Shown here: one piece after another, positions 40,462 to 46,031 of the stretch
How the letters are laid out: the number at the start of each line of letters is the position of its first letter
Position numbering within the stretch: the stretch's first letter is position 1
Position numbers and translations under genes: made by a program
Notes under the pieces: generated by a model
The model's database searches: none
What the model was told of the DNA's origin: nothing
Seen by the model: the letters and a program-made list of their open reading frames with translations, nothing else
Assembly (NCBI RefSeq): GCF_900698945.1
Contig: NZ_LR217717.1
Location: forward strand, 124,001 to 188,000
Origin: Buchnera aphidicola (Cinara laricifoliae)
GTDB lineage: Bacteria; Pseudomonadota; Gammaproteobacteria; Enterobacterales; Enterobacteriaceae
Length of the DNA stretch: 64,000 nucleotides
Reading direction: 5' to 3'

Positions 40462-41616
40462 TTATTTTTTTCTTCTTAAAAAAGCTGGAATATCTAAAAA
40501 ATTTTTTTCATATTTTTTTGTTTGTGTGAGTGTATTATGTGTATCTTTTTGTATATTTTTAGTATTGTTTATGATTTTATGTCCTCGTAATGTTTGACTT
40601 CTATAATCTGATAATAATCTGTTAGATGATTTATTTCTCATAAAAGAATTTTCAGGTCTTTGTTCCATACCAATTCCTGTTGCAACTACAGTTACTCTTA
40701 ATGAATGATCCATTTGTGGATCTAATGATGTACCAATTACAACTGTGGCATTATCAGAAGAAAATGCACGTATAGTATTTCCGACGGTCTCAAATTCATC
40801 TAATCTTAAATCAAAACCAGCAGTAATATTTACTAAGACTCCTCGAGCTCCGGATAAATCAATATCTTCTAGTAATGGACTAGAAATCGCAATTTCAGAT
40901 GCTTCTTCAGCTCTATTTTCACCTGATGCTGATCCTGTTCCCATCATAGCATACCCCATTTCTGACATTACAGTTCTTACGTCTGCAAAATCTACATTCA
41001 TTAATCCTGGTCGTGTAATTAGTTCTGCGATTCCTTGTACCGCACCTTTTAAAACATCATTAGCTGCTCCAAATGCATCTAATAATGATATACCGCGCGT
41101 TAATACTTTTAGTAATTTATCATTAGGAATAGTGATTAATGAATCAACGTATTTAGATAATTCATTCAATCCTTGTTCTGCAAAATTCATTCGTTTTTTT
41201 CCTTCAAAACTAAAAGGCTTGGTAACTACTGCAACAGTTAGAATCCCTAATTCTTTAGCAACTTCTGCAACTACTGGTGCTGCTCCAGTACCTGTTCCGC
41301 CTCCCATTCCTGCGGCTATAAAGACCATATCAGCTCCATATAATGCTGATTTTAACGTTTCTTTATCTTCTTCAGCGGAATCTTTTCCTACATCAGGATT
41401 GGCTCCAGCGCCTAGTCCTTTAGTTATAGTATTACCGATTTGTATTGTTTGCCCAACAGCTATTTTTCTTAATGCTTGTGCATCTGTATTAATAGCAAAA
41501 AATTCAACTCCTTCTATTTTTTCACGAACCATATGTTCAACAGCATTACTACCTCCTCCGCCAACACCAATAACTTTAATAACTGCATCATTGCTTAATT
41601 CAGACGGTTCAAACAT
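40462..41616 (-). CDS. ftsZ: Cell division protein FtsZ
   Basis: FtsZ is the tubulin-like GTPase that forms the division ring. The tubulin signature [10 protein letters not shown] is intact, as are [14 protein letters not shown] and [11 protein letters not shown]. The C-terminal peptide [10 protein letters not shown], which binds FtsA and ZipA, is conserved. I chose the ATG at 41616 ([12 protein letters not shown]), preceded by GGAG at good spacing; a GTG at 41625 would add three residues. The 384 residues match E. coli (383). It is one of the best-conserved proteins here. Confidence 0.98.
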
Positions 41617-41674
41617 AAAATACACTCCATAATATTGAAATGTTTAAAAATAATTAAATATTTTGAATATTTAA

Positions 41675-42925
41675 TTATTTATTTAACCAGTATTTTATTT
41701 GGTTAAATAAATATTTTAAAAATCTCGGAGATTTGTTTTTTTTCCGAGAATATTTTTGATGATTTTTTCCATACTGTAACAACCCAACAATGGTTGCATA
41801 TTCAGGTTTATTAATATATTCGGGTATTTCGGGTACATTACAGGGTTTTTTTATTATAATTTTTGTATTAAATATTTTATTAGCACATGTTAACAAATGC
41901 TTTATTCTGGATGATCCTCCAGTTAATACAATATTAGAGATTTTTTTATATTTATTTTTTTTAATATTATATGTTGTATATAGTTTTAAAATTTCGTTTT
42001 TTACTAGATTTAATAGTTCTGTATATCTTGGTTCGATAACTTCTGTTAATGATTGATAATGGCAGTTATCTATTTTGCTACCATTTTTATTTAAAATATC
42101 TATATTTTTACATGTCATTGATAAATCTGCTACGGCATATCCATATTTTTTTTTTATAAATTCTGCATCTGAATAAGATAAAGAAAATGCATAAGCAATA
42201 TCACGTGTAACAGAATTACCTGCATAAGGTATTACAGCATTATGGTATAAGGATCCTTTTATATGAACACTAACATTCATAGTTTCGCCTCCCATATCTA
42301 TTAAACAAACTCCTGAATTTTTTTCTTCTTCAGTTAAAACTGATAAGCTAGATGCTAATCCAGTAAATATTATTTTTTTAACATGAATGCCGCATTTTTG
42401 AATAGCGTTAATAATATTTTTTTTTATATTTTTATTGCCAGTAATTAAATGTACGTTAGCTTGCATTCGTATACCAGATAATCCAATAGGATTTTTAATA
42501 CCTGATTGGTGATCTATACAGAATTCTTGTGGAATAATATGTAAAATATTGTGATTATTTTTTATTTTAACAGATTTAGCAATTTTTATAACTGTTTTTA
42601 TGTCTTTTTTTGTGATTTCTGTATTTTTTATAGGGGTAATACCAATTTCGTTTTGACAATTTATTTCGTTGTGTGATATTGATAAATATACAGAATATAT
42701 CTTACATTTTGCCATTTCTTCTGCGTCATGAATAGATGTATTAATACAGTTTATTAATAATTCTAAATTATTAATGTTACCTTTTTCTATACCTTGAGTT
42801 GGATGTTTGCTAAAACCAATAATATTAATACTACCGCATTCAAGAATTTCTCCTATTAAAACAATTATTTTGGTTGTTCCTATTTCTAATCCGACAATGA
42901 TATTTTTTTTTGTTGAAAGGTTCAT
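41675..42925 (-). CDS. ftsA: Cell division protein FtsA
   Basis: FtsA is the actin-like protein that ties FtsZ to the membrane. The phosphate-binding loops read GLEIGTTKI and CLIDMGGETMN, and the adenosine motif reads LTGGSSRIKHL. The C-terminal amphipathic helix RFLKYLFNQIKYWLNK fits the membrane-targeting sequence. The 416 residues match E. coli (420). It precedes ftsZ in the transcript. ftsQ, ddlB and murC, which lie upstream in E. coli, are not present. Confidence 0.97.
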   Translation of the reverse strand: MNLSTKKNIIVGLEIGTTKIIVLIGEILECGSINIIGFSKHPTQGIEKGNINNLELLINCINTSIHDAEEMAKCKIYSVYLSISHNEINCQNEIGITPIKNTEITKKDIKTVIKIAKSVKIKNNHNILHIIPQEFCIDHQSGIKNPIGLSGIRMQANVHLITGNKNIKKNIINAIQKCGIHVKKIIFTGLASSLSVLTEEEKNSGVCLIDMGGETMNVSVHIKGSLYHNAVIPYAGNSVTRDIAYAFSLSYSDAEFIKKKYGYAVADLSMTCKNIDILNKNGSKIDNCHYQSLTEVIEPRYTELLNLVKNEILKLYTTYNIKKNKYKKISNIVLTGGSSRIKHLLTCANKIFNTKIIIKKPCNVPEIPEYINKPEYATIVGLLQYGKNHQKYSRKKNKSPRFLKYLFNQIKYWLNK

Positions 42926-43322
42926 ATAATTTAATTAAACTAGATTTTTGTTTTAATGTTGTTAACAGTTATAGTGTATGGTATATAACTTTTATTTTAT
43001 GTATATATACATATACTATATAATTTTTGTATATATAAAATATTTTAATAATGATAATATATAGCGTAAATATAAATATATTATAATTGTAAATTTTATA
43101 TGATTATTTTTAATTAAATTTATTAATATTTTATATTAAAATTAATATTTACAATTATTTTTATAAAAATAAATATTTTTAGATATATTTATGTTTTTAA
43201 AATAAAAATATTTTTATTCATTTTATTAAATAAAATTATTGAAACTTATAAAAATTTGTATTTAGCTGTAAAATAAAATGAATACATTTTGAATCGATAT
43301 AATTATTTTATTTATTATAATA
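42926..43322. other. Gene-free region between ftsA and the murE-like gene
   Basis: In E. coli this interval holds murF, mraY, murD, ftsW, murG, murC, ddlB and ftsQ. Here only 397 very A+T-rich bases remain, with no recognisable remnant. Confidence 0.6.
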
Positions 43323-44810
43323 TCATTGTGTGTATGTAGTAATAATATTTTTTTTTGATAATATTTTTATGTATTTAATAATTTTTTTTACTTTTTTTTC
43401 TTGTTCTGATACTAGTATTATATCATATTTGTTAGCTTCATATAAAATAAATTGTATAGCTTTTTTTATTTTATAAAATATAAAAAATTTATTTTGTTTA
43501 TAGCGATCTATTAATATATCATTAATGATTGATATATCTTTTTTATTTTTTGGATTATTGCTAATAAATACAATAAAATTAGAAAACTTTTCTATAATGC
43601 TTCCTATTATCTTTCTTTCACTAATATTATGTATTTTTTCATACCCCAAGATACACCAAATTTTGTTATATTGATAACTTCTTAATGAGTATAGTGTTCG
43701 ATATAATATTTGTGGTAGATATTTATTATTAATAATAAATAAAGGACTGTTATTTACTTGAATTTTTTCCATTTTTCGATGTATAGGTCGTAAAAATTTA
43801 CTACTCGGAATTAGTATGTTTAAAGAATACTTTAACAAAAGCATGGCCGCCATCGCTAAAGTAATATTAGTAATGTTAAAATCACCGATTAATGAACTGT
43901 ATAAACATCCAGATCCCCATGTCGAATTAAAAAAAATTTTTGTACGTGTAGTGCTATAAATTATTTTTATTGTATTAATCCAATATTTTATGTTAAAGAT
44001 ATTATCTTTTTTTAGTACTGTTACAGATATAATTTTTTTATTTTTAATTTTTTTTATCCAATTATTTGTAATATTTTCATTTCCATTTAAAATAATATTT
44101 TTTATTTTATTTATGTTTAAAAAAGAAAATTTTATCTTTTCTTTTTCAAACATTGTTTTTTGACCGTCTGTACTACTATTAGTTAAGTTTGTACATATTA
44201 TTGATTCAAATCTTAAATAAGATATTTGTTTTTGCATTAGTACGGTATACGGCATTTCTATTACAGTAATATCTATTTTTTTTTTTACTAATCGATATAG
44301 TATTTTTTGAATAGAATTATCGTAACGTATATCATGACGTATGGTAGATTGAAATATTTTCTTTTTATTTTCTAGATTTTTTATTACACTAATTTTTTTG
44401 TTAATTAATTGTTCCCATTGTGCAATTAAATTAGTTACAGTAGTTTTTCCATAAGTTCCTATTATTCCAATTAGTTTAATTTTTTTTTGCGGATAATTAA
44501 AGAATCTTTCATATATTATGTGAATATAATTACTTAATTTTTTAAAATAAATGATAAGTGTATTGTATCGTATAGATATACATAATCCATGTTTATTTTT
44601 TTTTGTTTCATATAAAATAACATTTGCTTTATTTTTGATAGCATTAATAATAGAATTTTTATGTATATTTCTTTTTTTTTCTAATGATATAAACAAATCA
44701 CCAATTTTAATTTTTTGATTACATTGCGTAATATTGCAAATTTTTTTTTGAGGGATATTGTTAATCCAAGGATTTAATAGTACTTGTATATTATTTATTT
44801 TTTTTATCAT
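43323..44810 (-). CDS. murE: MurE-like Mur ligase with eroded active site
   Basis: MurE adds meso-diaminopimelate to UDP-MurNAc-dipeptide. This full-length frame (495 residues, E. coli 495) aligns with MurE throughout: GDLFISLEKK, the P-loop GTYGKTT (118-124) followed by LIAQWEQL, and GDFNITNITLA. Most catalytic signatures are gone. EVSSHG has become EMPYTV (185-190), DHLDYHG is replaced by SSTDGQK, the HTPD region reads KYLPQIL, and the substrate-binding DNPRTEE reads NNPKNKK (418-424). GKGHEDYQ is lost. The other mur genes around it are absent. It is either a decaying gene that is still open or a protein kept for another purpose; as a MurE enzyme it is probably inactive. Confidence 0.85.
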   Translation of the reverse strand: MIKKINNIQVLLNPWINNIPQKKICNITQCNQKIKIGDLFISLEKKRNIHKNSIINAIKNKANVILYETKKNKHGLCISIRYNTLIIYFKKLSNYIHIIYERFFNYPQKKIKLIGIIGTYGKTTVTNLIAQWEQLINKKISVIKNLENKKKIFQSTIRHDIRYDNSIQKILYRLVKKKIDITVIEMPYTVLMQKQISYLRFESIICTNLTNSSTDGQKTMFEKEKIKFSFLNINKIKNIILNGNENITNNWIKKIKNKKIISVTVLKKDNIFNIKYWINTIKIIYSTTRTKIFFNSTWGSGCLYSSLIGDFNITNITLAMAAMLLLKYSLNILIPSSKFLRPIHRKMEKIQVNNSPLFIINNKYLPQILYRTLYSLRSYQYNKIWCILGYEKIHNISERKIIGSIIEKFSNFIVFISNNPKNKKDISIINDILIDRYKQNKFFIFYKIKKAIQFILYEANKYDIILVSEQEKKVKKIIKYIKILSKKNIITTYTQ

Positions 44811-45110: not shown

Positions 45111-46031
45111 TTATAGTATTTCTGCAATCCTTAATATTGCACTGCGTGCGCGAGGATTTTTTTTAATTTCTTTGTTACTGGGTTTAATTTTTTTAATTAT
45201 TTTTAGTTTTTTTGTTGTGTATTGTGTTATTTGATCATTATTTATAGGTAATCCTTTAGGAATAATTATATGTCCACTATTTTTTTTAAAAAAATTTTTT
45301 ATAATTCTTCCTTCGATAGAATGAAAACTAATAATAGCCAATCTTGCGTTTTTTTTTAATATTTTTGTTGAAATATTTAATATTTTTTTTAATGATTCTA
45401 TTTCACAGTTAATATAAATACGTATTGCTTGAAAAGTACGTGTAGCAGGATGCTTATATTTATTTTTTTTTGGTATTATTTTTTTAATAATTTTTACTAA
45501 ATCAAGCGTATACATAATAAGTTTTTTTTTATTTTCTTCAAAAATAGCATAAGAAATTTTTTTTGCATACCGCTCTTCTCCGAAATTTTTTAAAACAAAT
45601 TCTATTTTCTTTTGACTTGCTTTTTGTAACCATTTCCATGCTGGTATTCCTGATTGATTATTCATACGCATGTCTAAAGGTCCGTTTCTCATAAATGAAA
45701 AACCTCTATTTGCTGTATCTATTTGTATTGATGAAATTCCTAAATCTAATAAAATTCCATTAACATGTTTATTATTATGATAATATAAATTCTCAATGAC
45801 ATGAGAAAAATTTCCATGTTTAATAAAAAATCTTTTATCTTTTATTTTTTTTCCTATATTAATGGAGTATGGATCCTGGTCAATAGCATATAAAAATCCT
45901 TTTGGTCCAATATTTTTTAGTATTTCTAATGAATGTCCGCCTGATCCAAATGTTGCATCAATATATGTACCTGCTGGTTTGATTTTTAAAGCATTAATCG
46001 ATTCTTTTAATAGTACTGGTATATGTAACAT
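45111..46031 (-). CDS. rsmH: 16S rRNA (cytosine1402-N4)-methyltransferase
   Basis: RsmH (MraW) methylates C1402 of 16S rRNA in the ribosomal P site. The SAM motif reads DATFGSGGHSLEIL, followed by GILLDLGISSIQID and RGFSFMRNGPLDMRM, and the C-terminus has ISFHSIEGRIIKNFF. The 306 residues match E. coli (313). It is the first gene of what was the dcw cluster; it survives because its role is in translation rather than cell-wall synthesis. The ATG at 46031 gives MLHIPVLLKESI, the family N-terminus. Confidence 0.97.
   Translation of the reverse strand: MLHIPVLLKESINALKIKPAGTYIDATFGSGGHSLEILKNIGPKGFLYAIDQDPYSINIGKKIKDKRFFIKHGNFSHVIENLYYHNNKHVNGILLDLGISSIQIDTANRGFSFMRNGPLDMRMNNQSGIPAWKWLQKASQKKIEFVLKNFGEERYAKKISYAIFEENKKKLIMYTLDLVKIIKKIIPKKNKYKHPATRTFQAIRIYINCEIESLKKILNISTKILKKNARLAIISFHSIEGRIIKNFFKKNSGHIIIPKGLPINNDQITQYTTKKLKIIKKIKPSNKEIKKNPRARSAILRIAEIL

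Follow-up and report, generated by a model that had tools for sequence, protein, structure and literature searches.

In the 64,000-nucleotide stretch of the Buchnera aphidicola (Cinara laricifoliae) genome analysed in this work (hereafter, the window), a gene of MurE descent, lying in the place expected for murE, encodes a protein whose substrate sites are altered and which is under purifying selection in a genome lacking the peptidoglycan genes that were searched for. The best overall explanation of these data, which we regard as likely, is that the product is a murE-derived pseudoenzyme with a Mur fold, probably nucleotide-binding, that would be kept for a role outside peptidoglycan synthesis. 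The altered substrate sites, the missing pathway, and the purifying selection are the strong parts of this explanation, the mechanism being the weak one. The features of the locus are listed in Table 1.

Table 1. Features of the MurE-like locus (window positions; copies are the eight full-length Buchnera proteins compared).
Feature	Position	Strand	Observation
MurE-derived pseudoenzyme gene (likely)	43323..44810	minus	495 codons + stop
P-loop, G118-T124 (GTYGKTT)	44439..44459	minus	Asn of GTNGKT changed to Tyr in 8/8 copies
Glu185, E of EVSSH	44256..44258	minus	kept in 8/8 copies
Former DHLDYH loop, about residues 212-218	44157..44177	minus	presumed Mg-binding His lost
Lys227	44130..44132	minus	kept in 8/8 copies
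FNxxN, residues 311-315	43866..43880	minus	kept in 8/8 copies
Former DNPR diaminopimelate motif, residues 418-421	43548..43559	minus	NNPK in the window's copy
Former GKGHE motif, residues 469-473	43392..43406	minus	now acidic/Lys-rich; an 11-column deletion follows
rsmH (name from sequence)	45111..46031	minus	upstream neighbour; 16/16 genus genomes
ftsA (name from sequence)	41675..42925	minus	downstream neighbour; 16/16 genus genomes
murE-ftsA spacer	42926..43322	no strand	less constrained control; gathers indels

The open frame described in the initial annotation was confirmed, with the addition of its strand, which had not been given; the genome that holds it counts 445,591 bases in three contigs, and its leucine-type plasmid contig shows 81% identity to the one of Buchnera from Cinara pseudotaxifoliae, the top match among the records listed. 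The locus between rsmH and ftsA is the slot expected for murE, ftsZ (named from sequence) also lies downstream, and the murE-ftsA spacer is presumably the place of the other mur/fts genes in an intact cluster. In one genome (G001), the gene nearly adjoins rsmH, with a spacer of 27 bases (L014:5810-5836) compared to 213-374 in the other seven. A 295-codon frame antisense to ftsZ (40745-41632) most probably arises from the codon usage of ftsZ.

The MurE homology from end to end that had been proposed was borne out by NCBIfam profiles and by the match to E. coli MurE in the PDB (E about 1e-53). Profile NF001123 (PRK00139.1-1) matched residues 7-470 with 274.5 bits, below its curated cut-off of 586, and TIGR01085 gave 193.1 bits, below its cut-off of 257.3. 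The structure prediction called for by the same annotation returned the Mur fold, the good model having been built with intact MurE in its alignment; the model from the eight Buchnera copies alone was useless (pLDDT 39.7). Residues 149-161 and 212-216 of the predicted model are below pLDDT 50. The window protein shares with MurE (TIGR01085, PRK00139; E. coli 1e8c and 7b53) the three-domain fold, the rsmH-ftsA slot, the P-loop, Glu185, Lys227, and FNxxN, whereas its UDP-MurNAc, Mg-His, and GKGHE sites are replaced, its DNPR is altered, the searched pathway genes are absent from its genome, and its scores lie under the family cut-offs.

As part of the best explanation, the gene would be the vertically inherited murE of Cinara-associated Buchnera. 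The synteny of the locus speaks against a horizontal origin, as do the close relatives: the six other close matches (69-84% identity) comprise five entries under Buchnera and one under Janthinobacterium. The latter (P0004, 73% identical to the window protein), assigned to a metagenome bin of Janthinobacterium lividum, is probably a mislabelled Buchnera contig. In public records, some relatives are named MurE or "Mur ligase family protein". The possibility that the gene is a divergent copy accompanying a true murE was discarded, as nine genomes have one Mur-ligase-domain match each, and basic charge proved uninformative as a hint of nucleic-acid binding, some intact MurE proteins of AT-rich genomes being equally basic.

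Eight full-length Buchnera proteins, the window's copy included, were compared with a reference set of 15 motif-intact MurE proteins taken from 41 intact-MurE loci; a further sequence set comprised 21 of the 41 loci and 16 of 18 distant proteins. The pathway context of the MurE references was examined in three genomes (G032, G044, and G063), with five Mur-domain genes each. Out of 64 positions invariant in the 15 intact proteins, 18 are kept in the eight copies, 32 are replaced in all of them, and 14 are mixed. One new residue common to the eight copies occupies 17 of the 32 replaced positions, compared to 15.9 expected for random positions, and two more correspond to a shared deletion; the former active-site positions are neither more nor less conserved than the rest of the protein.

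The eight copies largely keep the P-loop/adenine side and have lost the UDP-MurNAc, second-Mg, and GKGHE sites. The P-loop Lys and Thr, Glu185, Lys227, Asn315, and Arg399 are present in all of them, and the GTYGKTT and GDFN segments, previously reported as kept, were both found. We take Glu185 to be a Mg ligand, Lys227 to stand where Mur ligases carry a carbamylated Lys, and the Asn of FNxxN to be an adenine-side residue; these and the other single-residue roles are those we assume from MurE and MurD structures. The view that the remaining motifs were all replaced held for DHLDYHG, whose presumably Mg-binding His has given way to S, N, or L in every copy, and for GKGH (GKGHE being replaced in 8/8), but not for the E of EVSSH. 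The His of HTPD is kept in 7/8 copies; only the window's own copy has lost it, with Tyr at residue 364 (43719-43721). As for DNPR, its loss is partial in the window's copy, where N and P persist and D and R have become N and K, respectively; in the other seven copies, the site is more degraded and differs in each subclade. Moreover, the Arg of GRM is Lys and the Asp of DYAH is Asn in 8/8 copies; given these two changes in what are presumably nucleotide-side residues, nucleotide binding may be weak or lost.

Selection on the gene was estimated from nine pairs of genomes, two of which use the partial frame of genome G015. Omega was 0.026-0.095 in all nine and omega = 1 was rejected (2dlnL 73-235), so that the dN/dS near 1 indicated in the initial annotation as the mark of plain decay was not observed. 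Since dS is saturated in distant pairs, the close pairs weigh most, with omega values of 0.040 (G006/G007), 0.095 (G002/G004), 0.086 (G002/G011), and 0.084 (G005/G006). The joint omega over two sets of three pairs was 0.062/0.077, the highest of seven genes, the others being rsmH (0.053/0.064), ftsA (0.054/0.045), ilvI (0.045/0.040), ilvH (0.042/0.050), dapD (0.042/0.051), and ftsZ (0.011/0.013); the constraint on the MurE-like protein is close to that on most neighbouring genes. Along the protein, joint omega was 0.067/0.092 in the N-terminal part, 0.058/0.065 in the central one, and 0.065/0.090 in the C-terminal one. The P-loop strip (residues 100-147) gave 0.035/0.029 and the former substrate strip (148-225) 0.123/0.120. 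The DNPR strip (36 codons) is not relaxed (0.034/0.075), which runs against a simple reading of a released site; given this and the NNPK of the window's copy, some contact at the site may persist.

Of the five pairs aligned, four show no gap columns in the open frame and one shows six, compared to 10-103 in the murE-ftsA spacer. The divergence of this spacer is lower than dS, and dN amounts to about 0.2-0.4 of it for the MurE-like gene and 0.2-0.3 for ftsA (hand calculation). Under neutrality, modelled with base frequencies and a kappa of our choice, the frame would gather about 15 stops for every 0.1 substitutions per site; thus, chance does not account for eight open frames among diverged genomes. 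Very recent release, one of the two options originally put forward, is rejected for the clade by the omega range together with the residues shared at 17 of the 32 replaced positions. These data and the mostly gap-free frame set against the gapped spacer led us to discard recent release or a pseudogene for the clade.

The TIGR01085 profile found the gene in 10 out of 16 genus genomes, eight of which harbor a full frame of 488-497 amino acids in the same place. In G015, the nearest relative, the copy (L022:4104-5563) changes frame at a run of 11 A near codon 43; the rest is open, and its dN is not clearly raised. Poly-A slippage occurs in Buchnera, and through it this copy might still yield a protein. 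In G003, the copy is a relic, and its matched part contains 11 in-frame stops. No profile match was retrieved from G008, G009, G010, G012, G013, and G014. In G009, protein-level traces of the C-terminal part were detected (E about 1e-4 to 0.01), and G012 showed a weak one (best E 0.02), the reversed controls being empty. We relied on these traces because the nucleotide BLAST search for relics was noisy in AT-rich spacers, its reversed control reaching 1e-7 among the matches listed, and the protein-level control was empty. The prospect of stops or indels in sister strains was borne out in G015 and G003, with traces in G009 and, weakly, in G012. The gene is therefore dispensable in some lineages, and several losses look independent, on a tree with supports of 35-43 at three backbone nodes. 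This dispensability in places (six of 16 genomes unmatched, one relic, one poly-A frameshift) counts against the best explanation. In a wider sample of the family, 110 out of 119 genomes gave a match, 104 of them over the cut-off.

Regarding the timing of the change, the identity of MurE is 0.328 (33%) between the clade and four references and 0.450 (45%) among the references. The corresponding values are 0.505/0.471 for rsmH (four references), 0.454/0.475 for ftsA, 0.725/0.718 for ftsZ, 0.697/0.696 for ilvI (partial genes), and 0.555/0.516 for ilvH (two references each); none of the five has a deficit comparable to that of MurE. Within the clade (the window's copy against the other two subclades), identity is 0.708 for MurE, 0.743 for rsmH, and 0.749 for ftsA. 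The extra divergence sits between the clade and intact MurE, not within the clade, a pattern suggesting that constraint changed before the clade radiated and then returned.

The Mur-ligase central domain gave one match in each of nine out of 16 genus genomes and none in seven, and the MurE-like gene has the only such domain found in its own genome. No match to the transpeptidase (penicillin-binding), MraY-type, or FtsW/RodA families was retrieved from any of the 16, and the murA model found one sub-cut-off match of AroA size per genome. With a single Mur-ligase domain and no MraY-type match, the complete mur pathway elsewhere considered in the initial annotation is not there; the peptidoglycan pathway seems to have been lost in this Buchnera, MurB, MurG, and Ddl being outside the families searched. 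FolC, which shares the Mur central domain, seems missing in the 16 genus genomes, and some reduced relatives keep a FolC-sized match. In 11 reduced genomes without MurE over the cut-off, four have a single Mur-domain match (frame of 402-473 amino acids) and seven have none; the four look FolC-like by length, and an orphan MurE in other reduced genomes was discarded. A link with MreB was also abandoned, as the matches are consistent in size and place with DnaK/HscA-type proteins and FtsA, none being MreB-like by length.

Since the active site has been rewritten and selection is nearly as tight as on the neighbours, the protein probably does a different job now, and the retained non-MurE role proposed earlier fits the low omega and the shared replacements. 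Other explanations were weighed. The gene might have lost its function with the pathway and simply not be erased yet, as the G003 relic, the G015 frameshift, the six unmatched genomes, and the traces in G009 and, weakly, G012 would suggest; omega values of 0.03-0.10 in nine pairs, a frame mostly free of gaps beside a spacer that gathers them, and the neutral expectation of stops make such slow decay improbable. That the protein acts on a new acceptor, as a ligase or ATPase working through the kept P-loop, Glu, and carbamylated Lys, is unlikely: the P-loop Lys and Thr, Glu185, Lys227, and Arg399 of the eight copies and the unrelaxed DNPR strip are in its favour, but the second Mg-binding His, the GRM Arg, the DYAH Asp, and GKGHE are lost, and the model is poor at the two segments below pLDDT 50.

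It can hardly be credited that UDP-MurNAc-tripeptide is still made for some use. Diaminopimelate should be made, because a dapD-like gene (named from sequence) lies nearby; however, there is no second Mur-ligase domain, so that neither MurC nor MurD is there to supply the substrate, and the UDP-MurNAc-side positions are replaced. Retention of the DNA or RNA rather than the protein, for example as the ftsA promoter region, would suit a gene that immediately precedes ftsA on the same strand, but the constraint falls on amino-acid changes, and genomes lacking the MurE-like gene still have ftsA and ftsZ; we consider it very unlikely.

Under the preferred explanation of a pseudoenzyme with a new role, the rest of the peptidoglycan pathway would have been lost first, after which the protein would have ceased to be a tripeptide ligase; it would have diverged fast before the clade radiated and been under purifying selection since. 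We infer nucleotide binding, absence of ligation, and a protein-protein role: the Mur-fold scaffold would bind a nucleotide via the kept P-loop, Glu185, Lys227, and FNxxN, open and close upon binding, and contact a partner protein. Two guesses for the process are division, given the neighbours FtsA/FtsZ, or gene expression, as for plastid PAP11. According to excerpts of PMC12681378, MurE homologues sit at the periphery of the plastid RNA polymerase as its subunit PAP11, which contacts beta' partly via the C-terminal domain, and a scaffold is weighed against a remaining catalytic role. PAP11 (8r6s, 8xzv, 9epc) and the window protein have the MurE fold in common; the PAP11 chains, however, have 768-774 residues with a long N-terminal extension, absent from the 495-residue window protein, and in the same excerpts most streptophytes keep DNPR or DNPK, versus NNPK or more degraded forms in the Buchnera copies. 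It is conceivable, although we hold it only tentatively and as rather doubtful, that MurE has a non-peptidoglycan partner in bacteria, visible only upon wall loss, and that Cinara-associated Buchnera repeat the PAP11 case independently, MurE alone being kept, its substrate sites being dismantled, and the protein serving a core machine, either RNA polymerase or the FtsA/FtsZ division apparatus, as the subunit that binds a nucleotide.

In the literature searched, mostly at listing level, we found no description of a catalytically degenerate yet conserved MurE in Buchnera. Among the genes lost by Lachninae Buchnera, excerpts of PMC11188193 list murA-murD, murF, murG, and murI, murE not being in that list; in Buchnera of Schizaphis graminum, a frameshift at a homopolymer has inactivated murE (excerpt of PMC3164680), and the gene serves only as a Hamiltonella marker in the excerpted text of PMC6908640. 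According to an excerpt of PMC9116674, all peptidoglycan pathway genes are missing from Buchnera of C. cedri. These losses (PMC9116674, PMC3164680) concern the same gene in the same kind of host, with homopolymer frameshifts; in those excerpts, murE decays or vanishes with or before the pathway genes, whereas here it outlives the searched ones. The present data also amend the picture, drawn from Cinara cedri in that part of PMC9116674, of Lachninae Buchnera without peptidoglycan pathway genes. Genomes of about 445 kb have shed most genes that they could do without, and an enzyme that stays conserved there although its pathway is missing and its active site has been rewritten points to a second function of MurE. 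Given the plastid precedent, Buchnera would be a second, independent case for finding what MurE binds.
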